Shown here: in pieces, positions 30,691 to 59,043 of the stretch
How the letters are laid out: each line of letters begins with the position of its first letter
Numbering within the stretch: position 1 is the first letter of the stretch
NCBI RefSeq assembly: GCF_011038885.2
Contig: NZ_CP064952.1
Coordinates: 1,612,001-1,676,000 of the forward strand
Direction: 5' to 3'
Length of the DNA: 64,000 nt
DNA from: Schaalia sp. ZJ405
Lineage (GTDB): Bacteria > Actinomycetota > Actinomycetes > Actinomycetales > Actinomycetaceae
The notes under the pieces: model-generated
What the model was told of the DNA's origin: nothing
Databases searched by the model: none
What the model saw: only the letters and a program-made list of their open reading frames with translations
Position numbers and translations under genes: made by a program

Positions 30691-30752
30691 CGCCGGCTGG
30701 ACGACCTGCCGGTCGTATCGCATGGGGACGGCCCCACGGACAGAAAGGGGCC
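30691..30752 (+). promoter_or_regulatory. Guanidine-II (mini-ykkC) riboswitch
   Basis: Two tandem hairpins with ACGR loops are present: CCGGCTGG-ACGA-CCTGCCGG (30693-30712) and TGGGG-ACGG-CCCCA (30723-30736). Twin hairpins with these loops define the mini-ykkC motif, which binds guanidinium. GGCCCC (30730-30735) can instead pair with GGGGCC (30747-30752), which includes the ribosome site AAAGGGG of the exporter gene. Ligand-stabilised hairpin 2 would therefore free translation initiation. The mechanism is inferred from the mutually exclusive pairings. Confidence 0.85.
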
Positions 30753-46579: not shown

Positions 46580-46843
46580 TTAGAGGGAATCAATAAGGTC
46601 ACGCATCAGCTGTGAGGGTGTGGTCTGGCGCTGATTGGCCACTTCGTTGAGTTTGGCTCGACGTGGCGCGTCAAGCCGAAGGGTGAACGGCTTAGCTTGC
46701 ACACCTACACTAATGGGACGACCTGGGATTGAGGCACCCAGGTGCTTACCTGTGTATCCGGTTTCGGACTCTGCTTCGCTTGCCCACTGTTCGATATCGT
46801 CATCGGTGAAAGCAGTTCCGTTGACGTCTGTGTATGTTCCCAT
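46580..46843 (-). CDS. Ribbon-helix-helix-type antitoxin
   Basis: An 87-aa protein, MGTYTDVNGTAFTDDDIEQW, whose C-terminal part (PFTLRLDAPRRAKLNEVANQ then RQTTPSQLMRDLIDSL) is a ribbon-helix-helix fold. The N-terminal part would contact the toxin. It follows the toxin-like gene with four bases between, in BrnT-BrnA order (toxin first). A palindrome upstream of the pair is the likely operator. Confidence 0.8.
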   Translation of the reverse strand: MGTYTDVNGTAFTDDDIEQWASEAESETGYTGKHLGASIPGRPISVGVQAKPFTLRLDAPRRAKLNEVANQRQTTPSQLMRDLIDSL

Positions 46844-46847
46844 CTGT

Positions 46848-47105
46848 TTACCTCCTCAACCCAACTTCAATAAGGACCTTCGTTGTTACTGGCATGGAAT
46901 GAAAGATCAGCCAACCATCAGGTTCATCTTCTACAGCGACGTACTCCAACAACCGCCCGTTTGAGTCGGTTCCTACACCAACCCACCGCACAGGGTGAGT
47001 ATCGCGCGCACGCGAACGTAGCGTGTTCTCGAACGCCGTGCGCACATCTAGCTCGCTTACCTCCGGATGTCGCTCAACAATCCTCGGATATACCCTCACC
47101 CGCAC
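46848..47105 (-). CDS. BrnT-like toxin
   Basis: An 85-aa protein starting at a GTG preceded by AGGAG. It reads MRVRVYPRIVERHPEVSELD, then VRTAFENTLRSRARDTHPVR, WVGVGTDSNGRLLEYVAVED, and ends MPVTTKVLIEVGLRR. The beta-sheet pattern GVGTDSNGRLLEYVAVE followed by a C-terminal helix is like RelE-fold BrnT toxins, which are ribonucleases. The exact family was not verified. Confidence 0.7.
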   Translation of the reverse strand: MRVRVYPRIVERHPEVSELDVRTAFENTLRSRARDTHPVRWVGVGTDSNGRLLEYVAVEDEPDGWLIFHSMPVTTKVLIEVGLRR

Positions 47106-47129
47106 ACATCACTCCTCCCATCAGTTTCA

Positions 47130-47147
47130 TACTACGTTAGTGTAGTA
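47130..47147. promoter_or_regulatory. Operator palindrome of the toxin-antitoxin operon
   Basis: TACTAC-GTTAGT-GTAGTA has perfect six-base inverted arms 25 bases before the toxin start, the expected position for autorepression by a ribbon-helix-helix antitoxin. Confidence 0.65.
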
Positions 47148-47161
47148 CGAAATTTTCTTCA

Positions 47162-47689
47162 TTACACCCCATCGGCTGACAGGATGGATGTCAGACTGGG
47201 ATTCCGTCGAACAACTTGACGCTTGGCATCACAAGTTGCTTGCTGCTTGGCGGACTCGATGTGTTGACGAATTTCAGCTAGCCACTTACCCCACTGGCTA
47301 ATCCCCATTCCAGCCTTTTGAGCCCGAACAACCCGCCCACCTGCCGCTCGCGCTCTTTGTTCATAATCAATCATGTGTTGACGCTCCAACCACCGCCCAA
47401 ACAACGCTGGATACGAAGCTGAAGGCAACTTAAACTCGCGAGCTAAGTCCGACGCACTCTCACCATCAAGCCAACGTGATCCAACTCCTGTTTTCAATTT
47501 CTATGGGCCACGTACGAAACGACGGGACTTTTCGCGCGTGTTCGATACCATGCACATCAGCTTCTCGACAATAACGACGCGCAGTTTCATACTGCTATCC
47601 CAGCCAAACGCGCGCAATCACTAATAGAAACCCCTTTGGCATACAAACGCAGCACCTTCAAGCGCCGCTCCTTACTCCTCTGACTCATA
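47162..47689 (-). pseudogene. Broken helix-turn-helix gene (transposase or terminase-like)
   Basis: From the ATG at 47689 the frame reads MSQRSKERRLKVLRLYAKGV then SISDCARLAGIAV and stops. A one-base shift gives YETARRYCREADVHGIEHAR, and a second shift near 47505 gives KTGVGSRWLDGESASDLARE then FKLPSASYPALFGRW. Two HTH-like units (GVSISDCARLAG and GESASDLAREF) suggest a DNA-binding protein such as an insertion-sequence OrfA. I do not recognise the family. The last 111 codons remain an open frame. Confidence 0.5.
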
Positions 47690-47782
47690 ACAGTCCCTTC
47701 ACATCAGAACTGTCCAACCACAGGGGTTCACTCCAGTCTCACACTCGGCTTCACCGCAATCCCCGAGCGAAAGGGAAGAGGG

Positions 47783-48163
47783 TTAGCTATTCGCCAATTG
47801 AGAGACGCGAGCACGGGACACGTTCATCAACCACGCCGCATCGGTCGTCGTCACCCCCGACGCACGCAACGCACGCACAGCCTCACGCACGCGAGCAGCG
47901 GCTTCAACCTGGGCACGAGCAGCAGCTTCGGAGGCTTCTTGAGCGCGACGCACTTCATCAATACCGGGAATTTCAGGGACGATCGTGATCTCCCAACCGG
48001 AGTGATCAACGTTTTCTTCAACGGTGTCAAGATAATCGACAACCTGTTGACGAGCTTTAGCCAGACGCTTGACCTGGGTCCAGCAGTCATCACCGTTCCA
48101 GAGTTCCCAACCGCCACCAAGAGGGCTGTCCCATTTTTTGGCTGTGATTGTCAGGTTTGTCAT
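47783..48163 (-). CDS. hicB: HicB-type antitoxin with C-terminal HTH
   Basis: A 126-aa protein: N-terminal MTNLTITAKKWDSPLGGGWE and LAKARQQVVDYLDT as in HicB partial RNase-H folds, a long Ala/Glu/Arg-rich helix (residues ~70-100), and a C-terminal HTH GVTTTDAAWLMNVSRARVSQ. It overlaps the HicA stop by four bases. It binds HicA and the operon operator. Confidence 0.85.
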   Translation of the reverse strand: MTNLTITAKKWDSPLGGGWELWNGDDCWTQVKRLAKARQQVVDYLDTVEENVDHSGWEITIVPEIPGIDEVRRAQEASEAAARAQVEAAARVREAVRALRASGVTTTDAAWLMNVSRARVSQLANS

Positions 48164-48360
48164 GACGCTTTCTCACTTTCTTCAATAGCCTTGAGCGCTT
48201 TGCGCACGAGACCAGGGGAGATTTCGACTGTTCGCGTAATGGACACCGAGATCCCAGTTTCGTGCCGCCATACTTCGTGGTCACCTTTGCCCTGCCGTGA
48301 AGCAAACCCTGCTTTCTTCAGGAGTTTCGCCAGTTTTCGGTAGGGCATCGGCTTTGTCAT
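48160..48360 (-). CDS. hicA: HicA-type mRNA interferase toxin
   Basis: A 66-aa protein, MTKPMPYRKLAKLLKKAGFA then SRQGKGDHEVWRH, with the double-stranded-RNA-binding-like fold and the catalytic His in GKGDHEVW, and a C-terminal ISPGLVRKALKAI helix. It is the first gene of hicAB. The ATG lies six bases from a -10 box, so the mRNA is probably leaderless. Confidence 0.9.
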   Translation of the reverse strand: MTKPMPYRKLAKLLKKAGFASRQGKGDHEVWRHETGISVSITRTVEISPGLVRKALKAIEESEKAS

Positions 48361-48432: not shown

Positions 48433-48722
48433 CACGTCAAGGCCACACTCTACGAGGACGAGGCATCCATCGGGGCCTTCTACAAGAGATTCGCCCAGGC
48501 CAGGATCGACACACCCGAGACCCGCGACCAACTCTTTGAGTACTTCATCGACAAAATCTACATCGGACACAAGCAGATCATCATCGCGTCCTACTACCAC
48601 GACAGCGCAGGGCCAATCGAATACGAAGACCTCGAAGAAGCGCTGACCAGCGGAAACAGAGCAGGGGAAGTACGAACCTACGCCCGAAAGCAAGAGTTCG
48701 ACACTTCCCCCTGGAGTGGAGA
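48433..48722 (+). repeat. 290-bp direct repeat, left copy
   Basis: Left copy of a direct repeat; the right copy is 58711-59000 in the intact recombinase gene, 10.3 kb away in the same orientation. Confidence 0.95.
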
Positions 48723-48780
48723 CCAAGGGGCATGTGTAGAACTTTTGATTATGAAAGATCACCTATTGTTTGTTGCCTAA
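48433..48780 (+). pseudogene. 3' fragment of a serine recombinase gene
   Basis: Bases 48433-48722 align without gaps to 58711-59000 at about 96% identity (12 mismatches), that is codons 430-526 of the intact recombinase. The frame HVKATLYEDEASIGAFYKRF stays open through ...FDTSPWSGDQG and then runs into unrelated sequence to a stop at 48780. The 5' 80% of the gene is missing. It forms one arm of a 290-bp direct repeat around the mobilizable element. Confidence 0.92.
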
Positions 48781-48836
48781 TCCGAGAGACTTCTATACAA
48801 CCACACACTATCGCAACGGTGACGTTGCTGATAAAA

Positions 48837-48873
48837 TCATGCGGCACCACAACAGTGTTGCAGTGCCGCATGA
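48837..48873 (-). terminator. Terminator of the secreted-protein gene
   Basis: Eleven-base perfect arms (TCATGCGGCAC and complement) followed on the minus strand by TTTTATC, 15 bases past the stop. Confidence 0.8.
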
Positions 48874-48887
48874 TGTGGGGTGGAGTA

Positions 48888-50141
48888 TTACTCCCAGTGG
48901 GCGGGAACGTCTACGATCCAGACGTCCTTTGTGCCGGTTTGACGAGACTCTTTACGGTATTTCGTGACAGTCTCATACTTCGCTGGGATTTCAACGTTGT
49001 CATACATTCTACGAGAGTTGTAGTTGCCAATATATCCTTCTTCCATCATTGCCACTGAATGTTTAGCAACTTTGTCAATAGCTTCAATACTACGTCGTTT
49101 ATATTCAGGATCTTTGAATTCTAGTCCACGAGCATCGAAAATAATAACATAACCTGTTTCAGGGAAGTAATATTTTTCCCCAACATATGCATACTCAGTA
49201 CGAGCTTCCTCAACGAGAACGTTTTCGGTGTAGGGAACATCGACTTCCTCGTACACTGGTTGCTTATCCCAGTGGCCTTTCTCGGCAACCCACTTCTTTG
49301 GTTTTGCTGCTGGAGCAGCAGGAGTTGCAGGCTTCGGTGTGGCGGGGGACGCGTTAGGAGCAGGCTGAGGGGTAGACGGTGTGGCACCCACATGAGGCTT
49401 ATCCTCAGGAGCAGGAGTGACAGCACTTGTGGTTTCCTCCACCTTGCTCTTATCGTCCTCGCTCATGTTCGGATTCGCCTTACCGTTCTTTTCAACGGTG
49501 TCCAAAGCGTTCTTACCCGCATCCCCGGCAAGAGTAGCGTCACCGGTGGCAATAGCTTTGCCGGTTTCCTCTGCGATCTTATGGATCACATCAGATGGAA
49601 CATCAGCGGGCTTGACGTTGGCAATTGGAATCTCAACGGTGGACAGCTCGTTGCGAGCAGACACGTTGATAGGAGTTGAAACAGCTTCAGCCTTGGCAGG
49701 ATCAGAGGCTACTTCAATCGAACCATCAGCGTTAATTGGAGAGATCACAGAGACGTTATAACGTCCCACAGGCACCTCAACAGTGCTCACGTCCTGAGGA
49801 TCGTTTGGACGCACAGCATGATGGAAGTCCGTGCTCTTATTAGATTCTTCAGCGCCTTGGATGCGAGTGATCGCAGGAGAAGACGAGTCTGTCCACGTCT
49901 TGTCTTTCGACTGAACATCGAGCTTGAGCTTGGCCTTAGGCTTGGGAGTGGATTTTGGAGACGTAGCTGGCGTGTCAGCGCTTTGAGCAGTGATGTGATC
50001 TGGCTGGGCGCCAAGCTGCGCGACAGCAACGCCACCTGCAACAAGAGCGAGAACCGTTGCGATGCCAGTTAAGGCAGAGAGCAGCTTGTGTTCTTTAATT
50101 GTCAGCATCAGGGTTGATGCAAAACGTCGTAGTGTTTTCAT
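48888..50141 (-). CDS. Secreted protein with tryptophan-rich C-terminal repeats
   Basis: The ATG at 50141 has AGGAGG eight bases upstream and is preferred over a start at 50186. The 417-aa protein begins MKTLRRFASTLMLTIKEHKL, with a hydrophobic segment LLSALTGIATVLALVAGGVA (membrane anchor or signal). A Ser/Thr/Pro/Lys-rich linker and a central beta-rich domain follow, then a Pro/Ala repeat region. The C-terminal ~130 residues begin KKWVAEKGHWDKQPVYEEVD and end KDVWIVDVPAHWE; these paired WVxxxxHW motifs resemble short repeats in Gram-positive surface proteins. No LPXTG signal. Function unknown; probably a surface or secreted cargo protein of the element. Confidence 0.7.
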   Translation of the reverse strand: MKTLRRFASTLMLTIKEHKLLSALTGIATVLALVAGGVAVAQLGAQPDHITAQSADTPATSPKSTPKPKAKLKLDVQSKDKTWTDSSSPAITRIQGAEESNKSTDFHHAVRPNDPQDVSTVEVPVGRYNVSVISPINADGSIEVASDPAKAEAVSTPINVSARNELSTVEIPIANVKPADVPSDVIHKIAEETGKAIATGDATLAGDAGKNALDTVEKNGKANPNMSEDDKSKVEETTSAVTPAPEDKPHVGATPSTPQPAPNASPATPKPATPAAPAAKPKKWVAEKGHWDKQPVYEEVDVPYTENVLVEEARTEYAYVGEKYYFPETGYVIIFDARGLEFKDPEYKRRSIEAIDKVAKHSVAMMEEGYIGNYNSRRMYDNVEIPAKYETVTKYRKESRQTGTKDVWIVDVPAHWE

Positions 50142-50258
50142 GAGTGTTCCTCCTGTGAAAGTGCGGGTGTGAATGATCAGACTCAAAATGAAAATAAAGC
50201 TTCAGGCTTAATAACAAAGGTGCCGTGCAACTTTAGATGAAAGTTCAACGTGGGGAAA

Positions 50259-50387
50259 TCATTCACGATACCGGCAAAGACGAAGATGAGGATTAAAATA
50301 CGCTGACAGCGACAGGGAAGCTTTCGCGTCACACATATTTGGTTTACCAGGAGCTAGCTGGAAGGAAATTGTATTCTCGGTTGACAT
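50259..50387 (-). CDS. Small 42-aa leader ORF behind poly-G promoter
   Basis: MSTENTISFQLAPGKPNMCD, 42 residues, with an excellent ribosome site (GGAGG seven bases before ATG). It lies 118 bases upstream of the secreted-protein gene on the same strand and downstream of a promoter with a 10-G spacer tract. It could be a leader peptide, a small protein, or the conserved start of a former gene. No family recognised. Confidence 0.5.
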   Translation of the reverse strand: MSTENTISFQLAPGKPNMCDAKASLSLSAYFNPHLRLCRYRE

Positions 50388-50425
50388 TTGCAACCCTCCT
50401 GCTCTTAACATTCCCCTCACAGCCG

Positions 50426-50456
50426 AGAGTACCCCCCCCCCAACGAAAACTGTCAA
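50426..50456 (-). promoter_or_regulatory. Promoter with 10-G tract in the -35/-10 spacer
   Basis: On the minus strand TTGACA (complement of 50451-50456) is followed by a 19-base spacer that includes ten consecutive G (complement of 50432-50441), then TACTCT (complement of 50426-50431). The spacer is two bases over the optimum, so G-number changes would alter promoter strength. This is the arrangement known for Neisseria porA phase variation. Promoter assignment is by inspection. Confidence 0.6.
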
Positions 50457-50459
50457 GCA

Positions 50460-50849
50460 TCTGATTTGACAAAACGTGAATGCGATGTCTCATCACACAG
50501 GATTCTTACAAACATTACCTAAAGTTTTAAGATAAATCTGTACTTCAATTACTCTTTTGAGAGTTCAACAAGTATCAGAAGAAGACGGTGCTGACGAGTA
50601 CCTAGAGAGCCTCACCGATGCATAGAAAAGTGCAGATACGGTAGTTATGGAAGTTCATAAAGACACGCCCAACGCGTTAACGAGACCTCTTGCAGCTTCT
50701 ACAGAGAAGAAGCATCTCAGCGAAGATGGATTCGAGTGAATGTCCCTGCCCTCTCAGGCCGAAACGGCGTAACACAACCGTTCTTCGACAAGCACAAAAA
50801 GAACCAGAAAACTTGCTCTGATTTGACAAGGTGTGATAGGATTGCATCA
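50460..50849. other. AT-richer non-coding region before the structured RNA
   Basis: No gene is visible in about 390 bases. The base composition is clearly more AT-rich than the chromosomal core. An extended -10 (TGATAGGAT, 50834-50842) with TTGCTC 18 bases upstream (50813-50818) could start the structured RNA on the plus strand. Confidence 0.5.
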
Positions 50850-51120
50850 AGTTCTTGAATAGACGGTATGCAAGTCGTTCGAGAAGGGATCACCCTGGGA
50901 GGTGGACGCGAGTTGGCTCAGGCCGTAATCCTCGCGCCACGGTGTAGCGCACCGAAGGTTAGCACCCATAAATTTCCCCGAGATTTATAAGTTAAGAGGC
51001 TGGGCAGGGAGTTAGCGCTCCTGTAAGGCAATGGCGGGTAACCGCTAGTGAGTAGTGCACGGTAAGATCAGACCGCCCAGATATTCACCGGGAAAACACC
51101 CCTCTCCGGACAGGTTAATT
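50850..51120 (+). ncRNA. Candidate structured RNA upstream of the polymerase operon
   Basis: No reading frame of note, but dense complementary arms. TTCTTGAA/TTCGAGAA (50852-50859/50878-50885). GTGG-CGCGAG/CTCGCG-CCAC with one bulged A (50902-50912/50931-50940), enclosing GGC/GCC. GGTG/CACC (50941-50944/50950-50953). ATAAAT/ATTTAT (50968-50973/50983-50988). CTGGGC/GCCCAG (51000-51005/51075-51080) closes a multiloop with GGGAG/CTCCT and TGGCGG-GTAA-CCGCTA, a GNRA tetraloop hairpin at 51032-51047. CCGG/CCGG follows near 51088-51109. It ends about 15-55 bases before the HTH gene. Not tRNA, RNase P, tmRNA or SRP. It could be a cis-regulator or a trans-acting RNA of the element. Confidence 0.65.
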
Positions 51121-51136
51121 ATGTCTTGGAGACGTT

Positions 51137-51430
51137 ATGACAAGTTATTCTCCGCCGTCCGAAAGGACACATTTTCTTACTTTACAGGAAGCCGTTGCCG
51201 AGGGGTATGGCGCCTATTCAACCCTCAGGCGTTGGATCACGCTGGGAAAGTTACCTGCATATAAAACAGGTAAGCGCATTAAGGTTCTAAGGGAAGACCT
51301 CAATACTTTAGTTCAACCTATTTATGCAGACACTCGGGAGTTGCATGTAGAGGCTCTCGTTAAGGATGCACCTCGTCTCACAGACGATCAAATCTTGCGT
51401 TTGCGTGATGCTCTTGGGGGTGTGCGATGA
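51137..51430 (+). CDS. Excisionase-like HTH protein
   Basis: A 97-aa protein, MTSYSPPSERTHFLTLQEAV, with a MerR/excisionase-type winged helix (LTLQEAVAEGYGAYSTLRRW then ITLGKLPAYKTGKRIKVLRE) and a C-terminal helical part. GGAG lies five bases before the ATG. Its stop overlaps the polymerase start (ATGA), so the two proteins are made together. It could be a recombination directionality factor for the serine recombinase, or a replication or transcription regulator. Confidence 0.8.
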   Translation: MTSYSPPSERTHFLTLQEAVAEGYGAYSTLRRWITLGKLPAYKTGKRIKVLREDLNTLVQPIYADTRELHVEALVKDAPRLTDDQILRLRDALGGVR

Positions 51431-54400
51431 GTGCTCTTGTCACCTCTCAGACGGGTGTAAAAAACTGTCCCGAAAAGTGTGTTGAAAAAGGGGTCTCGCG
51501 TCCAAATAAGACCTTATCGGGACAGCGCGTTTTTATTAAACCATTGGTAGAGCAACAAAATCTATCAACGGCGGCAACACTATATGGGGTAACCCCATTG
51601 CCGCCGTTGCCGCCGTTGGGGTGGAGTGTGGGTTATTTTTTAGACACGGTGACGTCGAGAAAACACCCCGCTAAGTTTGCTGTGTTGAGTAGGTCGGTTG
51701 AACGCACCGCCACCCGCACGGCAGGCGGTTTCGGGTCATATGAGTCTGTGGTGGGGATGCGGTCTGGCAAAGGCTCGATCGTCATCGGATTTGACACTGA
51801 ATTTGTTAGTGCAGATTTTTTCGATTCTGAGCGCGGGTGGGTTGGCGAGAGCGAGAAAGTCACGCGCCGCATCGTCTCCTACCAGTTCGCTGTTATCGAC
51901 CCGACCGATCATGACCGGCTGCGGCTGGCTGTGATTTTGCCTGTTCCTTACGACGGTCCTCGTGGTTTTCGGGTTGCCCGCCTGTCTTTTGGCAAGGCGT
52001 TGGAGCTTGCGATAGTGTCGCTCGGTCTGCACGAACATCCGCTGGCTGAAGGGTGGACTAGCAAGGGTGTACCCGTTAGAGACGTCACGGATGAGAATGG
52101 CAAGTTCCATCGCCAGAGGTGGTTCCGCAAGAAGAGCAAGAACGCTCACGCGCTGCCCATCACGCTAGTGGCTCACTTTCAGAACGCTGACCTCACTACT
52201 TTTGTTGACCCGGTGAAGATGCTCAACACCTGGGATGCCTCCTATCCAGAGCGCAAGAACAAGAAGGCTCGCAGTAAGAACGCTGGCTACTCCGGGTACA
52301 GGAATCGTCGTCTCGACTACAGGGAACCAGACATCTTGCGTGCGGTGATTTCTGCCAGTGCTGGAATGGTTTCACCCAAGCCTGTTGAGTGGGTTCTCCC
52401 CGGTGAGAACAAGCGTTGGGCACGCCCGGTCTTGATCTCGATTCGCGACACGATGGCGCAGTCGGGCGCCTCGAAGCTATCTGAGCTGGGCGAGGCCGTT
52501 GGGGTACCTAAGTTGGATGTCCCAGACGGCTGGATCAGCAGGATGGACGAGTACCTTGCCAAGCATCCCGTCGAGTACCTTGACTACGCGTCCAACGACG
52601 CCGTGATCGCCCTCGAGTACGTCACTCAGATGTACGGCGAGGCCCAGGAAGTCGCTCTGACGCTGCCAACGGCTGCGGCGCGTGCGGTCAGGGGCATGAT
52701 CACCACAGAACTTATTGAGAGAGGCGCAGAAAACGCGTCGAACAGCCTCTTCAATAGCGTGTTTGGTGGTTTGGAGAAAGTTACTAAGACAAGCGAGGCC
52801 ACCACGAGCGTTGAGAACCAACTCGCCTATTACCGACAGCGTGAATTACAGCCCTTGGACGGTGCCGCTGCAACGTGGATCCACGCCTGCGCACTTGCCT
52901 TCCGGGGCGGCTACAACATGAGCGCTGAGCTGGGCCTATTTGAGCAGACGACCCATGACTTTGACCTTCAGTCTTGTTATCCGACGGCGAGCTCGACAAT
53001 CTGGGATGTCGATTATCTGCACCCTGAGGGCGTCATCCTTAACACCGTCAACAACGTTGATCTTTCACTGGCTCACTTCGCCGAGGGTGGTCCGCTCACG
53101 CCGTTCGTCGGCTTCGTCAGTTTCGACTTTCCTGATTCTGTGGCCTTCCCCTGTCTTCCTGTCCCTGTTGAGGGTTCTATGGTGTACCCCCTGTCATCGG
53201 GTGGTGCTCGTGGGGTGTGGTCTATGGCCCCTGAGGTCTGGCTTGCCTTGAAGCTGGGTGCCCGCGTCAAGTGCCAGATAGGGCACTTCGGGCGTACGCT
53301 GCGACTTGAAGACGACACGCCATCTCGTTTGCTTCGTCGACCCTACAAGACATTGTTAGACGACAGGGGTCGCGCGAAGAAGGAGTTCGGCAAGAAGTCC
53401 TTTCAGCAGACCGTCCTCAAGCTGATGGCCAACTCTCCCTACGGCAAGCTCGCTCAGGGCGTCATGGGTCAGCGTGGGTGGGACGCGTGGGCGCAGGAGC
53501 GCGACGAGGTGGGTGGTTCGGCGATCACATCCCCGTGGCACGCCTCCATGACCACGTCCCTCCCTCGTGCGGTGCTGCTAGCGATTCTCAACCAGCTGCA
53601 TGACCTCGGATACTCGACGCCGAGTTGCACGACAGATGGTTTCATCACAGACGCCCCTTTTGACGTTGTTGATGGTCTCGATTTGTTCGGGCTGTCAGAC
53701 ATGTGGCGTGAAAGCCGTGAGGCACTGACGGGTTTTCGGGGCATGTGGGAGGAGAAACACACTCAAACTGACCTGCTGAATGTCACCACCCGTGCCAACT
53801 TTTCCCGCCAGCCGACAGGTGTTTTGGCTCACGGTGGTTACAAGCTGCCTGAGAGCATTGAAGCGGACAGTCAGGCCGACCGTGACTATATGTACAACCT
53901 GATGGTTTCTCGTAACGGTGCTCTACCTGTGACGATGAAGGTCTTCCCTTCGATACAAGAACTAACCCGAGTTAACAATCGTCAGGACTTTTCGCCTGTC
54001 GTTGTTCACAAACAGCAGACCATCGAATTTGATCGGAAGCGCCGCCCGGTGCCAGACGGAATGACGGCCAACATGGTGATGGTTGGTGACGAGGTCTTCG
54101 AGGTTGCGCATGTGAAAACAGTCCCGTGGAACACACCTGAGGAGTGCGAGCTAGGTAGGTCTGTCGACCGGGGCTTGAAGATTTGGGACGACGAGTTAGG
54201 TGAGCCCGTGTGGCAACGCTCCCCTGTGAGGCGAACACGCGAGCAATGGAATGACTACTTCGATCGGCTTGAGGCCTTACTCAACGAAGACGATCAAGCT
54301 GACGAGGCAGAGCGTCTTGATCACATCAGCAAAGGTATCGTCATTGCGCACCGTCAGGGCGTGATCGACATCCCGTGGCTCGGGTGTGACCGCTCCTTGG

Positions 54401-54564
54401 CCGAACGTCTCGATGCCTTTGAGAGGTTTGGTTTGCCTCGTCCAAAGGAGAGGTTTTGGAACCACGCAAGGTCAAAGGCAGAGCGCCAAATTGATGTGGA
54501 TCTTGACGCTATAAGTCCTTACGTCGAGAAGATGCTTCTCGACGACCCTTTCAATGAAAAGTAA
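51427..54564 (+). CDS. Family B DNA polymerase of a mobile element (pipolin-like)
   Basis: The 1045-aa protein carries both the proofreading and polymerase domains of family B. Exo I is GFDTEF (D123, E125), Exo II VAHFQNADLTTF, and Exo III YASND (Y387, D391). Pol A is FDLQSCYPT (D513, Y518), Pol B KLMANSPYG (K665-G673), and Pol C CTTDGF (D737). The first Asp of the usual DTD in Pol C is replaced by Thr. Length and motifs fit phi29-like protein-primed or primer-independent (piPolB) enzymes. No terminal-protein gene is seen, which favours piPolB. It probably replicates the element. Confidence 0.88.
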   Translation: MSALVTSQTGVKNCPEKCVEKGVSRPNKTLSGQRVFIKPLVEQQNLSTAATLYGVTPLPPLPPLGWSVGYFLDTVTSRKHPAKFAVLSRSVERTATRTAGGFGSYESVVGMRSGKGSIVIGFDTEFVSADFFDSERGWVGESEKVTRRIVSYQFAVIDPTDHDRLRLAVILPVPYDGPRGFRVARLSFGKALELAIVSLGLHEHPLAEGWTSKGVPVRDVTDENGKFHRQRWFRKKSKNAHALPITLVAHFQNADLTTFVDPVKMLNTWDASYPERKNKKARSKNAGYSGYRNRRLDYREPDILRAVISASAGMVSPKPVEWVLPGENKRWARPVLISIRDTMAQSGASKLSELGEAVGVPKLDVPDGWISRMDEYLAKHPVEYLDYASNDAVIALEYVTQMYGEAQEVALTLPTAAARAVRGMITTELIERGAENASNSLFNSVFGGLEKVTKTSEATTSVENQLAYYRQRELQPLDGAAATWIHACALAFRGGYNMSAELGLFEQTTHDFDLQSCYPTASSTIWDVDYLHPEGVILNTVNNVDLSLAHFAEGGPLTPFVGFVSFDFPDSVAFPCLPVPVEGSMVYPLSSGGARGVWSMAPEVWLALKLGARVKCQIGHFGRTLRLEDDTPSRLLRRPYKTLLDDRGRAKKEFGKKSFQQTVLKLMANSPYGKLAQGVMGQRGWDAWAQERDEVGGSAITSPWHASMTTSLPRAVLLAILNQLHDLGYSTPSCTTDGFITDAPFDVVDGLDLFGLSDMWRESREALTGFRGMWEEKHTQTDLLNVTTRANFSRQPTGVLAHGGYKLPESIEADSQADRDYMYNLMVSRNGALPVTMKVFPSIQELTRVNNRQDFSPVVVHKQQTIEFDRKRRPVPDGMTANMVMVGDEVFEVAHVKTVPWNTPEECELGRSVDRGLKIWDDELGEPVWQRSPVRRTREQWNDYFDRLEALLNEDDQADEAERLDHISKGIVIAHRQGVIDIPWLGCDRSLAERLDAFERFGLPRPKERFWNHARSKAERQIDVDLDAISPYVEKMLLDDPFNEK

Positions 54565-54593
54565 CGGTTGAAACATATATCAAGGAGAAAATT

Positions 54594-54881
54594 ATGAAAG
54601 AAAAAAAGAACATCGACCTGCTCATCAGTGAGGCGAAGAAAAAGCACGCGGCGCAACTACGCCGACTGCGTGAGCAAGCCGCTAAAGAAGAGCAAGAGAT
54701 CCTGATACGGGTCTCTCGTTTACTTGCAAAACACGAACCCGATCTCTTTGCCCAATACAGCGATCATGCCTTGAGGTTGATCGAACAAGAGCGAAACCAA
54801 CGTGCTGAGCGTGCACGCTCAGCACGTGCACGGCGCAAGCAGAAAGTCGCCGACTCTGAGAGTGGTGGAGGTAGTCAGTAA
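54594..54881 (+). CDS. Small coiled-coil accessory protein
   Basis: A 95-aa, strongly charged helical protein, MKEKKNIDLLISEAKKKHAA then QLRRLREQAAKEEQEILIRV, with a basic Arg/Ala-rich C-terminus. AAGGAG lies upstream. It sits between the polymerase and mobC on the same strand and overlaps the mobC start codon region. Its gene contains a 28-bp perfect palindrome. It is perhaps a mobilization or replication accessory factor; no family recognised. Confidence 0.65.
   Translation: MKEKKNIDLLISEAKKKHAAQLRRLREQAAKEEQEILIRVSRLLAKHEPDLFAQYSDHALRLIEQERNQRAERARSARARRKQKVADSESGGGSQ
54800..54827. repeat. 28-bp perfect palindrome
   Basis: Bases 54800-54827 read the same on both strands, centred on GTGCAC. 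It lies inside the small coiled-coil gene, 53 bases before mobC. A palindrome this long is not expected by chance and may be a protein-binding or replication site. Confidence 0.9.
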
Positions 54882-55546
54882 TGACGTATGTCATCAAGAC
54901 GACCTCTGCTGGTGCGACTCACAAGGGGCAACACACAACACAGAGTGTTGCACCGCTCTTGGACACCACCTCTGTTGCTGTGAAACAGGTGGTGTCTTCT
55001 CCCTCGCCCGCAGGGAGCGTAGCGACCGAGGACGGGGGCCAGCACGCATATGGAGGACACGGGAGCTTGCTCCCGATGTCCGACAATGCGCCTGCTGGCA
55101 CCACACCCTTCTACACCACACAGGACGTTAGCGCTGGGGGTAGAAGGGTGATTGAGGCTGCCCCACCGACGAAGACGGTAATACCGGGGGTAGGCGAGCG
55201 TGGAAGCCTCACTGCTCATCTTGACGTGAGGGTGACACGTAAGGAGCACGACGCCATCAAGCGTCGTGCGAGGGTGCTCGGTGTCAAGCCGAGCACATGG
55301 GCGAGAGCCGTCCTGCGAGACGCGCTGGACGAGCGACGCCATGAGGTCGAGGTACTGGCAGCGCAAGCGTCAGTACCCAGACCCTCACCCGAGCTTGCTC
55401 GGGCGGTTGAGCAGGTTCGCCGCGTCGGGGTGAACCTCAACCAAGTCGTGCGCACGGGTAGCGTGGTTGACGAGAAGATCCTTGTTGAGGTTCTCGCTGC
55501 CTTTGCTGAGGTGCGCACGCTGCTGAGAGACGAGGTGGCGTTGTGA
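54881..55546 (+). CDS. mobC: MobC-family relaxosome protein
   Basis: The 221-aa frame ends with a clear MobC domain: LDVRVTRKEHDAIKRRARVL then GVKPSTWARAVLRDALDERR (ribbon-helix-helix) and VEQVRRVGVNLNQVVRTGSV (the LNQ motif of MobC). The first ~90 residues are Thr/Gly/Pro/Ser-rich and coincide with a cluster of DNA hairpins, so the true start may be later, for example the GTG at 55148, with the upstream part being oriT. MobC helps the relaxase open the nick site. Its stop overlaps the relaxase start. Confidence 0.85.
   Translation: MTYVIKTTSAGATHKGQHTTQSVAPLLDTTSVAVKQVVSSPSPAGSVATEDGGQHAYGGHGSLLPMSDNAPAGTTPFYTTQDVSAGGRRVIEAAPPTKTVIPGVGERGSLTAHLDVRVTRKEHDAIKRRARVLGVKPSTWARAVLRDALDERRHEVEVLAAQASVPRPSPELARAVEQVRRVGVNLNQVVRTGSVVDEKILVEVLAAFAEVRTLLRDEVAL
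54936..55150. other. Candidate origin of transfer (hairpin cluster)
   Basis: Five inverted repeats in 215 bases: CAACAC/GTGTTG (54936-54950), GACACCACCT/AGGTGGTGTC (54962-54996), CTCCCT/AGGGAG (54999-55017), a 12-bp stem with one bulge (55055-55081), and CACCCTTCTAC/GTAGAAGGGTG (55104-55150). They lie directly before the conserved part of mobC, the usual oriT position in mobilizable plasmids. Confidence 0.55.
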
Positions 55547-56766
55547 GCACCGTCAACGTGCAGCCCACGACGAGTGCACGATCAGCCGTCACCTACGCGC
55601 TGCTCGGCACGGGCGAGCAACGCACGCAGCACGAGAAGGACGGCACCACACGTGCGGTGCTGCTCTCGTGCACGCTCGACTCCCCCGAGGACATCGTCCA
55701 ACGAGCAGAGCAGGTCTCATCAACGTTCCATCGCAAGAACGAGATGTACACCTACACTCAGAACTTCTCCCCCGAGGAGTTCGACGTGAACAACCCCGAG
55801 CACGTAAAGCGTGTGCACGAGCTCGGTGTGAAGCTTGCCAGGCGGATGAACAGTGCAGACTTCCTTGTCGTCACACACACTGATAGCGCTGGTGGTCATC
55901 TCCACAACCACATCTACATGGTCAATTACGACAAGCTCACAGGCAAGGCACTGTCTCGGTGTAGGTCGTGGTCACGGGGGCTACGTCAGGTTAACGACGA
56001 GCTCATGAGTGATGAAGGTTGTCAAGTGCTCCCTGACCCGCAGCAACCCAAAGCAGATTGGGATCTGCGTCGAGGAGCTTTTAAGGACGGGGGCTTCGAG
56101 CAGATCCTCGGAGACAAGATCTACGAAGCGCTACTCGATGCGCGCTCGGTTGACCGTGAAGCGTTCGAACGGGTGCTCGCTGAGCACGAGGTACGGCTGC
56201 GTGTTACTGACCGCGACGGTTGGACCTACTCCATGAGACGACTCGATAACGGTAAATGGGGACGGCGTAAAGCATCGTCCCTGTGTGATGACTTCATGAG
56301 AGCCAAGGTTGAAGAAATCTTCGACTTTCACAAGAAAAACATTAAGGAGGAGCGACATGAGCGCTCTGGACAAACTCAAAGAACAAGAGACCTCGGAAAT
56401 ATTAATAGTCTTGACTTCACGCCTCGAAGCCGTCGAACAACAGACAAAGCAACTCACAACAGCCTTGAACAAAGTGAGCGGCTTCCTCAGGTCGATGGAC
56501 GAGACACAAAGCGCCGAAATGAAGCGCTTGACCAAGTCGATCTCGCAGCTGCCCGAGCAGCACTCGCCAACGCAGCTCGACAACGAGACGAGGAACAGGC
56601 TCAGCGAGATCGAGAAGACGCTCGCAGAAATCGCCAAGCAGCTGAGCGCCAGCGGCGCAGTGAAGCTGCCCGACGGAAGCACCGTGAAGCGCTCCGATCT
56701 CGACTCGTACTCGATGATGAAGCAGCTCAGCAGCAAGCTAGAGACGACGACTTCGAGCTTGGATAG
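55543..56766 (+). CDS. MobA/MobL-type relaxase
   Basis: A 407-aa nickase that would cut at oriT and lead the strand into a recipient. The start is a GTG overlapping the mobC stop. The metal-binding motif is clear: H112-T-D114...H119-L-H121-N-H123 (THTDSAGGHLHNHIYMVN). An N-terminal Tyr (Tyr18 in AVTYALLG) is a candidate nucleophile. The C-terminal ~130 residues are highly charged and helical, and are read in a second frame by the next gene over 410 bases. No coupling protein or secretion genes are in the window, so transfer would need a helper. Confidence 0.88.
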   Translation: MSTVNVQPTTSARSAVTYALLGTGEQRTQHEKDGTTRAVLLSCTLDSPEDIVQRAEQVSSTFHRKNEMYTYTQNFSPEEFDVNNPEHVKRVHELGVKLARRMNSADFLVVTHTDSAGGHLHNHIYMVNYDKLTGKALSRCRSWSRGLRQVNDELMSDEGCQVLPDPQQPKADWDLRRGAFKDGGFEQILGDKIYEALLDARSVDREAFERVLAEHEVRLRVTDRDGWTYSMRRLDNGKWGRRKASSLCDDFMRAKVEEIFDFHKKNIKEERHERSGQTQRTRDLGNINSLDFTPRSRRTTDKATHNSLEQSERLPQVDGRDTKRRNEALDQVDLAAARAALANAARQRDEEQAQRDREDARRNRQAAERQRRSEAARRKHREALRSRLVLDDEAAQQQARDDDFELG

Positions 56767-57319
56767 CCTAACGAAGACCGTAGGTGATGGCAGGACAATC
56801 AAATTCAACTACGACAAAGTCAATCAGCATGTCGGTGGACTACTCGACAAGAAACTATCCCAAGCCGTGCAAGCCCCCGTCCAGCGTGTTGAGCGCACAT
56901 TGGAAGGCTTCGAGCAACGTGTCGCCGAAATCGGTACTCAGAAGGTCTCTGAGGCCTCTAAGAAGGTTGAAAAGGTCCTTGATGAAACCAAGGACCTCGT
57001 CTTTAGGATTGACCGCGCTGAACGCCACCTCAAAGACCTGGAAGGGCGTATGACATGGACCGTCGTAGGTAGGCTCTGCCTCGCACTGATACCACTAGCA
57101 GTGGTACTCCTGGTGGTTGGAGGTCTAACTATGGGTGTCTTCCACACCCTCGGCTTTGGACCACTTCTAGGTTGGGCGTGGGCAAGCTTCATGAATACGG
57201 ACATCTGGTGGGCCAAGGCTCTCATAGCTGTAGCTACCCTCAGCGCAGTCGCAGTATTCACAAGTATCGTATGGTGGCTAGCAAAGAAGCTTCGTGAAGA
57301 CTTCTTCAGACGTTGGTGA
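56357..57319 (+). CDS. MobB-like coiled-coil membrane protein overlapping the relaxase
   Basis: The ATG at 56357 has AGGAGG just upstream, inside the relaxase gene. The 320-aa protein begins MSALDKLKEQETSEILIVLT. Long coiled coils occupy about residues 15-215, then two membrane helices (LALIPLAVVLLVVGGLTMGV and KALIAVATLSAVAVFTSIVW) and a basic tail. In ColE1-type plasmids mobB overlaps mobA in another frame and encodes a membrane-associated mobilization protein; this gene matches that plan in position, overlap and topology. Function is inferred by that analogy. Confidence 0.8.
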   Translation: MSALDKLKEQETSEILIVLTSRLEAVEQQTKQLTTALNKVSGFLRSMDETQSAEMKRLTKSISQLPEQHSPTQLDNETRNRLSEIEKTLAEIAKQLSASGAVKLPDGSTVKRSDLDSYSMMKQLSSKLETTTSSLDSLTKTVGDGRTIKFNYDKVNQHVGGLLDKKLSQAVQAPVQRVERTLEGFEQRVAEIGTQKVSEASKKVEKVLDETKDLVFRIDRAERHLKDLEGRMTWTVVGRLCLALIPLAVVLLVVGGLTMGVFHTLGFGPLLGWAWASFMNTDIWWAKALIAVATLSAVAVFTSIVWWLAKKLREDFFRRW

Positions 57320-57423
57320 CGTAGGAAGGGTATTAAAATCTAACACCGCCTCACACACACCAGTTCCTCACGGGTAAACTCGACAGTTATCGAACAGATA
57401 CAAGCCGTAGAGGTGGTGATGGC

Positions 57424-59043
57424 ATGAAGTTACCCCCTGAGTACAACGACAACCAGATAGTTGTTGCCTATTACAGGTACTCGTCCTCCTCACAGAACGA
57501 AGCGAGTATCGAACAGCAGCGTGAGATGGTGCAGCGTTGGGCCAAGGCTCAAGGCCTCGTCGTAGTGAACGAGTACGAGGACGCGGCTAAGACCGGTACG
57601 AACGCTGACAGGCCTGGATATCAGTTGATGCTCCGTGAGCTACCGAAGATCAAACCCGCATACGTTGCCGTGTGGAAGAACGACAGGCTGGCACGTGACC
57701 GCGCAGAACTGTTGCTCGCTAAACAAGCCATCAGAGCTGCTGGGGCTCGCATCCACTACATCGAGGGCATCTCCCCCACTGACTCCCCTGATTCTGTGCT
57801 CATGGAAGGCATCGCTGACGCGTTCGCTGAATACTACTCACTACAACTCTCGGCCAACATCCGCAGAGGCCAGCGCTACAACGCAGAGCGTGCCCTAAGC
57901 AACGGACACAAGATCTTCGGCTTCACCGTGGACACAGACAAACGCTACATCCACGACCCTGAGACGGCTCCCATCGTCACACAGATCTTCAACGATTACG
58001 CCTCAGGTGTGTCAATGCAGAAGATCGCCGACCGGCTCAACGCCCAGGGCATCCGCACCACGCGCGGGTACAGGTTTACGCCCAAGAACCTCAACAAGCT
58101 CCTCAAGAACCGCGCCTACATCGGTGAATACTCCTACGGCGGGCACGTTATCGATGGTGGGATGCCTCGTCTCGTTGAGGATGAGATCTTCAATGAAGTC
58201 CAGCGCAGATTCGCCATCAACAAACGTCGCGGCGCGAAAACCAAAGCCGAGCTCGCAGCCCTGGGCGACGACGCACCCGACTACTGGCTCACAGGAAGGA
58301 CCTACTGCCTCACGTGTGGCAGCCCTATGGATGGCGTGAGCGGCACCTCGAAGACCGGCAGAACCTACCGCTACTACTCCTGCCTCAACCAAAGAAAGAA
58401 GAAGTGCTCGGCCAAACGCGTCCGCAAGGACGAAATCGAGCTGCGAATCGTTGAGATCATCGAATCCTTCCTCGCAGATACTGAAGAACTCGCCTCGCTC
58501 GCAGTAGACCTCGCCGACCACTACAAGAAAACCCACGGACGCGGAGACGAGATCCTCAAGGCACTCGAAGCTCGACGCACGGACGTGGAGGCAAAGCTCG
58601 CCAACTTCGTCAAAGCGATCTCCCAGGGCATTTTCAACGCCAGCACAGCTGAAGCAATGAACGCCCTGGAGGCACAGAAACAAGAGCTCGACGCCGCCAT
58701 CCAGGCCGAGCACGTCAAGGCCACACTCTACGAGGACGAGGCATCCATCGGGACCTTCTACAAGAGATTCGCCCAGGCCAGGATCGACACACCCGAGACC
58801 CGCGACCAACTCTTTGAGTACTTCATCGACAAAATCTACATCGGACATGAGCAGATCATCATCGTGTCCTACTACCACGACAGCGCAGGGCCAATCGAAT
58901 ACGAAGACCTCGAAGAAGCCCTCATCAGCGGAAACAGAGCGGAGGAAGTGCGAACCTACGCTCGAAAGCGAGAGTTCGACACTTCCCCCTGGAGTGGAGA
59001 TGGGGGGAATATCCCTAGATGGCGGTATGACGCGGAAAAATAA
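57424..59043 (+). CDS. Large serine recombinase
   Basis: A 539-aa site-specific recombinase. The resolvase domain has YYRYSSSSQ with Ser20 as likely nucleophile, then DRPGYQLMLRELPKIKPAYV and WKNDRLARDR. The recombinase domain (GYRFTPKNLNKLLKNRAYIG) is followed by a zinc ribbon (CLTCGSPMDG...YSCLNQRKKKC) and a coiled coil. It lies 105 bases after the MobB-like gene on the same strand and is the last gene before the divergent prophage-like region. It could integrate either the mobilizable element or the adjoining prophage. Confidence 0.92.
   Translation: MKLPPEYNDNQIVVAYYRYSSSSQNEASIEQQREMVQRWAKAQGLVVVNEYEDAAKTGTNADRPGYQLMLRELPKIKPAYVAVWKNDRLARDRAELLLAKQAIRAAGARIHYIEGISPTDSPDSVLMEGIADAFAEYYSLQLSANIRRGQRYNAERALSNGHKIFGFTVDTDKRYIHDPETAPIVTQIFNDYASGVSMQKIADRLNAQGIRTTRGYRFTPKNLNKLLKNRAYIGEYSYGGHVIDGGMPRLVEDEIFNEVQRRFAINKRRGAKTKAELAALGDDAPDYWLTGRTYCLTCGSPMDGVSGTSKTGRTYRYYSCLNQRKKKCSAKRVRKDEIELRIVEIIESFLADTEELASLAVDLADHYKKTHGRGDEILKALEARRTDVEAKLANFVKAISQGIFNASTAEAMNALEAQKQELDAAIQAEHVKATLYEDEASIGTFYKRFAQARIDTPETRDQLFEYFIDKIYIGHEQIIIVSYYHDSAGPIEYEDLEEALISGNRAEEVRTYARKREFDTSPWSGDGGNIPRWRYDAEK
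58711..59000 (+). repeat. 290-bp direct repeat, right copy
   Basis: This is the right copy of the repeat at 48433-48722, inside the 3' end of the intact recombinase gene. Confidence 0.95.

Follow-up and report, generated by a model that had tools for sequence, protein, structure and literature searches.

A probable integrative mobilizable element at the tmRNA site of Schaalia sp. ZJ405 with a pipolin-like DNA polymerase and a candidate translation-gating leader RNA

The window, a stretch of 64,000 nucleotides from Schaalia sp. ZJ405 (Actinomycetaceae; contig NZ_CP064952.1, positions 1,612,001 to 1,676,000), contains an element that joins a family B DNA polymerase (PolB) to mobilization genes, a large serine integrase and a structured leader RNA. 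Its features and immediate neighbours, in window positions, are listed below; other loci and genomes are cited by L and G numbers.

48433 to 48722, plus strand: remnant (3' end) of another serine integrase gene, related to that of the element, with 96% identity to 58711-59000; it borders the element on the left
48716 to 48722, plus strand: left copy of the attachment (att) core GTGGAGA, which closes the integrase remnant
48723 to 59000, no strand assigned: whole element, 10,278 bp, with its ends placed from the duplicated integrase end
48888 to 50186, minus strand: cargo gene, 432 aa, with an N-terminal hydrophobic segment by eye
50843 to 51136, plus strand: structured leader RNA, 5' end approximate
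51104 to 51131, plus strand: hairpin whose 3' arm contains the Shine-Dalgarno (SD) sequence GGAG of the helix-turn-helix (HTH) gene
51137 to 51430, plus strand: HTH_17 gene (excisionase/MerR-like; Pfam HTH_17), 97 aa
51427 to 54564, plus strand: PolB, 1045 aa, with exonuclease and polymerase motifs
54594 to 54881, plus strand: small coiled-coil gene, 95 aa
54881 to 55546, plus strand: NikA/MobC-like relaxosome protein (Pfam), 221 aa
55543 to 56766, plus strand: MobA/VirD2-family relaxase (Pfam), 407 aa
56309 to 57319, plus strand: MobB-like coiled-coil protein, 336 aa, with C-terminal hydrophobic stretches by eye, in a frame overlapping the relaxase
57424 to 59043, plus strand: large serine integrase, 539 aa (Pfam three-domain large serine recombinase)
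58994 to 59010, plus strand: GTGGAGATGGGGGGAAT, a 17-nt string that the host tmRNA gene, in plus-strand reading, also has at its 3' end; element/prophage junction

An earlier, sequence-only reading had described a mobilizable element comprising the HTH gene, PolB, the coiled-coil gene, MobC, the relaxase, the overlapping MobB-like gene and a serine recombinase, and all of these are present in one orientation. The proposed coupling of the first two genes is visible as an ATGA shared by the HTH stop and the PolB start. Relaxase, MobC and integrase are recognised by Pfam, in line with a mobilizable serine-integrase element that has its own PolB; the Pfam scan gave no match for PolB or for the 95-aa coiled coil, and PHROGs assigns the 1045-aa protein to DNA polymerase (E 4e-8) and the recombinase to integrase. 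Neither Pfam nor NCBIfam gave a match for the 432-aa cargo protein at E 0.01. Of the eight genes of the element that were scanned, none matched Cas1, the criterion for a casposon, and no type IV secretion gene was recognised within the element. As that reading had stated, no terminal-protein gene was recognised among the element genes by Pfam or PHROGs, a search by which a diverged terminal protein could be missed. Its own integrase and relaxase, without a conjugation apparatus, are those of an integrative mobilizable element (IME). From the comparisons that follow, we consider it likely that this is an IME of the tmRNA (ssrA) site with a pipolin-like PolB and a leader-gated replicase.

The boundaries differ from those initially given for it. 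A 290-nt repeat occurs at 48433-48722 and at 58711-59000, the latter being the 3' end of the integrase gene; the copies are 96% identical and both terminate in TGGAGTGGAGA. The element ends are placed at 48723 and 59000 because of this duplicated integrase end and the 7-nt core, and the most likely length is the 10,278 bp between the two GTGGAGA copies. An element at 50850-59043, as first described, is therefore real in substance, but its left end moves out to 48723 and its right end lies inside the integrase gene, whose codons past 59000 belong to the flanking prophage end. The integrase end abuts the tmRNA in all four relatives examined (G899, G894, G824 and G775), where it continues into GTGGAGATGGGGGGAATCGAACC or a string differing by one letter and where ARAGORN places the tmRNA 3' end; a fifth relative with in-frame stops, G853, stands outside this count. 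Integrase homologues were found in 6/171 family genomes at E up to 1e-100, the own genome counted. In the window copy the tmRNA match ends after 17 nt, and the own tmRNA, with the same 17 nt at its 3' end, lies on the minus strand at the window equivalent of 95366-95741. The 36.4 kb in between have the appearance of a tailed prophage by eye. This prophage-like stretch (window 59001 to the equivalent of 95366; L074, L075) is wedged between the element and ssrA with a shared end of 17 nt, and its integrase beside the tmRNA matches NF040815 at 33 bits, far under the cut-off. The simplest reading of the order at ssrA would be tandem accretion, running from the integrase remnant of an older element through the 48723-59000 element and the prophage to ssrA. 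Left of the remnant, at 46580-48360, small genes resemble BrnT- and HicAB-type toxin-antitoxin pairs by eye.

The leader RNA measures about 270-320 nt and covaries. Its 3' core in the window (50998-51131) is matched by R1, a covariance model of this core built on five class B sequences; R1 matches all 14 leader loci at 31 to 169 bits, these loci having been picked as likely positives and including the five that built the model. Model-based alignments were used because MAFFT misplaced helices when class A and class B leaders were aligned together, and it should be noted that an alignment fitted to the model structure favours the pair counts that follow. Over 37 pairs and 13 distinct rows, 94.9% of the cells are paired, against 84.5% in shuffled and 37-45% in slid controls, which lends comparative support to the structured RNA of the sequence-only reading; both-sided changes occur at 14 pairs (shuffled 7.6), in helices 1, 3, 4, 5 and 6. 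Folded alone, the window leader is unremarkable (z -1.5; 13/200 shuffles fold equally well). Rfam 15 gave no match at gathering thresholds and none at E up to 5 within 50200-51450, and no counterpart was found in Rfam or in the open-licence papers searched. The loop sequences GGGAUMACCC, UAGCG and GUAARGC recur across genera and are absent from some leaders. A 20-nt direct repeat (TCTGATTTGACAA..GTGA; 50460-50479 and 50817-50836, 85%) has its second copy at the leader promoter region and is a possible operator.

In all 14 leaders the GGAG lies 5-7 nt ahead of the HTH start, within the 3' arm of the closing hairpin, and its mean pairing probability is 0.91-1.0. Among 154 control open reading frames (SD-bearing, at least 150 aa, mechanically called with uncurated starts), 13% reach an SD pairing of at least 0.9. 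All 14 leaders thus keep the SD inside the closing hairpin of a conserved structure, as an SD-sequestering leader should, and we read the RNA as a putative translation gate for whichever replicase follows. The ATGA overlap of HTH gene and replicase is found in 10/14 leader loci, the exceptions being L010 (HTH gene cut), L011 (degraded), L047 (HTH gene shortened, no replicase) and L079 (altered frame). In addition, a CCGG situated 16-20 nt upstream of the hairpin in the 11/11 leaders checked (16 nt in the window) might base-pair with UCCGGA, a self-complementary stretch of the anti-SD arm, and it may be conjectured that this pairing acts as a switch.

Related leaders precede the HTH gene in L002, L003, L005, L006 and L007, and are also found on a Tessaracoccus plasmid (L011) and an IMG/VR contig (L010). 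The closing-hairpin pattern occurs at 12 places in 11/396 genomes of the order and in 4/171 of the family; its follow-up gave L047, L048, L049, L079, L080 and L081, eight places with three mismatches (L036, L038-L042, L044, L046) being left out. R1 matched 12/20 sources at E up to 1e-3. One match at 27 bits, in L031, was dropped, as it is found past the Mob genes, on the opposite strand, and is terminator-like by eye. Plasmids searched with the window leader gave no match. The own genome holds a second leader (G000:C1:2278666-2278800; L047 12667-12801, minus strand; 114 bits), whose HTH gene is shortened to 78 aa and after which no replicase is recognised, a remnant of another element.

The surprising part of this system is the leader RNA together with its indifference to the type of replicase. 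PolB follows leader and HTH gene in 8/14 loci (the window, L002, L003, L005, L006, L007, L080 and L081). In L010, where the HTH gene is cut by an insertion element by eye, the protein behind the leader is 1390 aa long and matches DNA polymerase A (E 2e-41); in L048 it is a 583-aa P4-family primase (168.8 bits, cut-off 108.7); and in L049 it is a 673-aa protein whose matches to Rep_OBD and RNA_helicase are sub-threshold. No replicase was recognised after the leader in the remnants L011, L047 and L079. Since it also stands before these three other replicase types, the leader is not PolB-specific, and leader class does not track PolB either, class B leaders preceding both an 82% (L002) and a 34% (L080) PolB. 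MobC and a relaxase are likewise present in L010, L048 and L049, the latter two also having a MobB-like relative. We would give about even chances to the broader proposal that these large actinobacterial RNAs and their HTH gene form an undescribed class of replicase-agnostic replication switch, behind which polymerase B, polymerase A, a primase-helicase or Rep would be exchanged as the mobilization backbone is kept.

The window PolB contains Exo I-III and motifs A and B, and its motif C reads TTDG, as in 102/105 homologues, three shorter ones (579-709 aa) lacking a detectable motif. The corresponding residues are DTDS in phi29 and PRD1, TTDG with KTRG in the Staphylococcus epidermidis plasmid pSE-12228-03, and VTDG with KTRV in a Fusobacterium plasmid. 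The KTRG lysine is a signature of the PolB of pipolins (piPolB); the window has TTRA at this position, with threonine in place of lysine, and over the 105 homologues (own included) the site is T in 94, S in 5, M in 1, A in 1 and K in 1, three short ones being unscored. It is because of this replacement that the element is called pipolin-like and not a pipolin. In a 26-row tree, which holds neither a casposon PolB nor the Escherichia coli piPolB, phi29 and PRD1 separate from all other rows at 96/99; long branches are flagged in it. By motifs and tree, the PolB appears to resemble that of the S. epidermidis pipolin plasmid more than those of phi29 and PRD1, which suits the pipolin-like element of the sequence-only reading, but with the lysine replaced primer independence would be conjecture and the name pipolin is not established. 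An AlphaFold model (31 alignment rows, pLDDT 84, pTM 0.79) has phi29 polymerase as its closest solved fold (TM 0.55-0.58, normalised by target length), with the terminal-protein complex at the top, and its list of viral folds is headed by polymerases of viruses that use protein priming. With phi29 as the closest fold, fold comparison cannot separate piPolB from protein-primed PolB. A search of the PolB profile against PDB sequences matched no polymerase.

Of 7999 candidates scored against the PolB, 105 are relatives at E up to 1e-3 (own protein counted); their displayed organism names are all actinobacterial, most rows being without a name. The PolB is present in 9/396 genomes of the order (own counted) and in 0/6 other genomes of the genus in that sample; in G775, a genome of this genus that the sample did not include, a 36% PolB lies close to a truncated integrase at ssrA. 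Fifteen other PolB loci with flanks (L002-L008, L029-L034, L080 and L081) were compared by tblastn at E 1e-3 or 1e-2. L004 reaches a contig edge; L027 and L028 are the contigs of L003 and L004, and L069 belongs to the L081 element, each being counted once; and L070 (PolB 36%), whose upstream DNA stops at the locus edge, was left out of the 15- and 16-locus counts. A relaxase was found in 13/15, MobC in 13/15, MobB in 12/15 and HTH in 11/15, in the same order, and the series HTH-PolB-MobC-relaxase-MobB thus recurs across Actinobacteria. The exceptions include L006, without a relaxase or MobB match, and L034, with HTH and PolB only. Such conservation elsewhere argues against chance neighbours and supports the sequence-only reading of one element. 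The integrase lies outside this conserved core. L067 and L068 carry an 84% integrase relative and the same Mob genes with a 432-aa protein in place of PolB (in L067 Rep_OBD at E 0.0017, under the cut-off; in L068 no Pfam match), and in L081 leader and HTH come together with a PolB of 38%, Mob genes and, at ssrA, an integrase of 68%. Searches with PolB gave no match in INPHARED by tblastn and, in IMG/VR, one pattern match and none confirmed. Another large serine recombinase, with N-termini alike by eye, is present in L080 (13939-15471) and L048 (1302-2843), in the latter directly after a ychF-like GTPase gene, which suggests a different integration site. On a Pseudosulfitobacter plasmid (L052, 1815-7359), a PolB-like coding sequence is apparently broken by IS66 genes, with mobC and a relaxase after it and a site-specific integrase upstream.

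Several observations weigh against a leader-gated IME as proposed here. At 31 bits, the window leader scores lowest among the 14 R1 matches, and helix 7, the SD hairpin itself, barely varies and so has no covariation support. Half of the PolB loci (8/16, window included) are without an R1 leader and have other long upstream sequences instead, those of L008 and L030 being alike by eye and L034 sharing the first 57 nt at about 80%; in eight non-R1 PolB leaders only 2/8 SDs reach 0.9, with starts picked by eye. Over 394 genomes of the class R1 matched the own genome only, at two places, at most eight candidates per genome being scored and misses being likely. The Rep assignment in L049 is under Pfam cut-offs. 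Just upstream of the leader, a possible promoter (TTGCTC-N18-TAGGAT) is a weak consensus match, and a standard scan for sigma-70 promoters and terminators at the leader gave none. Finally, a search of 35 genus genomes revealed no usable empty site, the matches in 3 genomes besides the own being partial, at 67-72%.

As to the polymerase, the nearest competitor is a true pipolin, in which PolB would start DNA without a primer like piPolB and the element would differ only in integrase type and host; we rate this slightly below even. It draws on the position of PolB on the side of pSE-12228-03 and apart from phi29 and PRD1, on the shared TTDG and on the lack of a recognised terminal-protein gene. 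PMC9710591 names S. epidermidis plasmid pipolins and places relaxases and resolvases on plasmid pipolins. On pSE-12228-03, among the closest known systems, a small gene comes next after PolB, and a MOBP relaxase and a DUF334 gene lie further along. The loss of the KTRG lysine in the window and in 94/105 homologues speaks against it, as do the long branches and the missing reference sequences of the tree. In PMC7385651, moreover, pipolins are defined by a PolB with intrinsic de novo priming and integrated ones encode tyrosine recombinases, whereas the integrase here is a serine integrase of ssrA type. Far less probable is a protein-primed replicon whose terminal protein would be an unrecognised small gene, such as that of the coiled-coil protein. 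The phi29 fold and its terminal-protein complex point that way, and terminal proteins diverge fast; yet the window has TTDG and no terminal-protein match where phi29 and PRD1, which split from this clade, have DTDS, INPHARED gave no relative, a distant relative lies on a circular plasmid record, and no inverted repeats of at least 20 nt occur in 43000-64000.

For the leader, a metabolite or ion riboswitch instead of a copy-number or incompatibility device seems unlikely: the loops that recur across genera, though missing in some leaders, and the SD hairpin as an expression platform would suit it, but L008 has a different leader at a PolB/MobC identity to the window equal to that of L005 and L006, which is more incompatibility-like, and 11/14 leaders precede a mobile-element replicase, the other 3 being remnants. 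That the RNA itself serves replication, either as a primer or as an origin transcript, is very improbable. Its location upstream of replicases of unclear priming, with the KTRG lysine missing, is compatible with such a role; however, a P4-type primase and a Rep-like protein follow it too, neither of which should need a primer of this kind, and translation is suggested by the conserved SD gating and the ATGA overlap.

A leader-gated IME can also be set beside known systems. A relaxase, a MobC-type accessory, an own integrase and no recognised type IV secretion gene are shared with IMEs, but the window element has a replicative DNA polymerase of its own; in the accessible text of the IME review PMC5704250, 'polymerase' appears once, for a sigma factor. 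In contrast to pipolins, the window element has the leader, whose core was not found in L009 or L052. ColIb-P9 repZ and repA of plasmid R1 exemplify leader control of plasmid Rep proteins, where, as proposed here, the ribosome site of a short gene with coupling to the replicase is shut by a structured leader; the difference is that the present RNA is complex, multi-helical and common to unrelated replicases, and that an antisense RNA would be hypothetical for it.

We propose that the serine integrase would excise the element at GTGGAGA, that PolB would copy the circular form, and that MobC, relaxase and MobB would allow the use of a resident conjugation system. The leader would hold the SD of the HTH gene closed and, through the overlap of HTH stop and replicase start, would set the level of any replicase placed behind it, as a control of copy number or of the excised state; antisense RNA, a protein or a ligand are candidate openers of this gate. 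The system suggests a mobile backbone with an interchangeable replicase and a constant structured RNA, and may offer a testable handle on replication control in PolB-encoding islands. A branch of piPolB-like polymerases without the KTRG lysine would also be useful for finding the residues needed for primer-free DNA start.

No perfect palindrome comparable to the one at 54800-54827 was found ahead of mobC in L002, L003, L005, L007 or L008; that palindrome, of 28 nt, lies inside the coiled-coil gene just before mobC and is a possible oriT or protein site. Elsewhere in the window, a guanidine-II riboswitch is located at 30693-30735 (Rfam RF01068, 36 bits).

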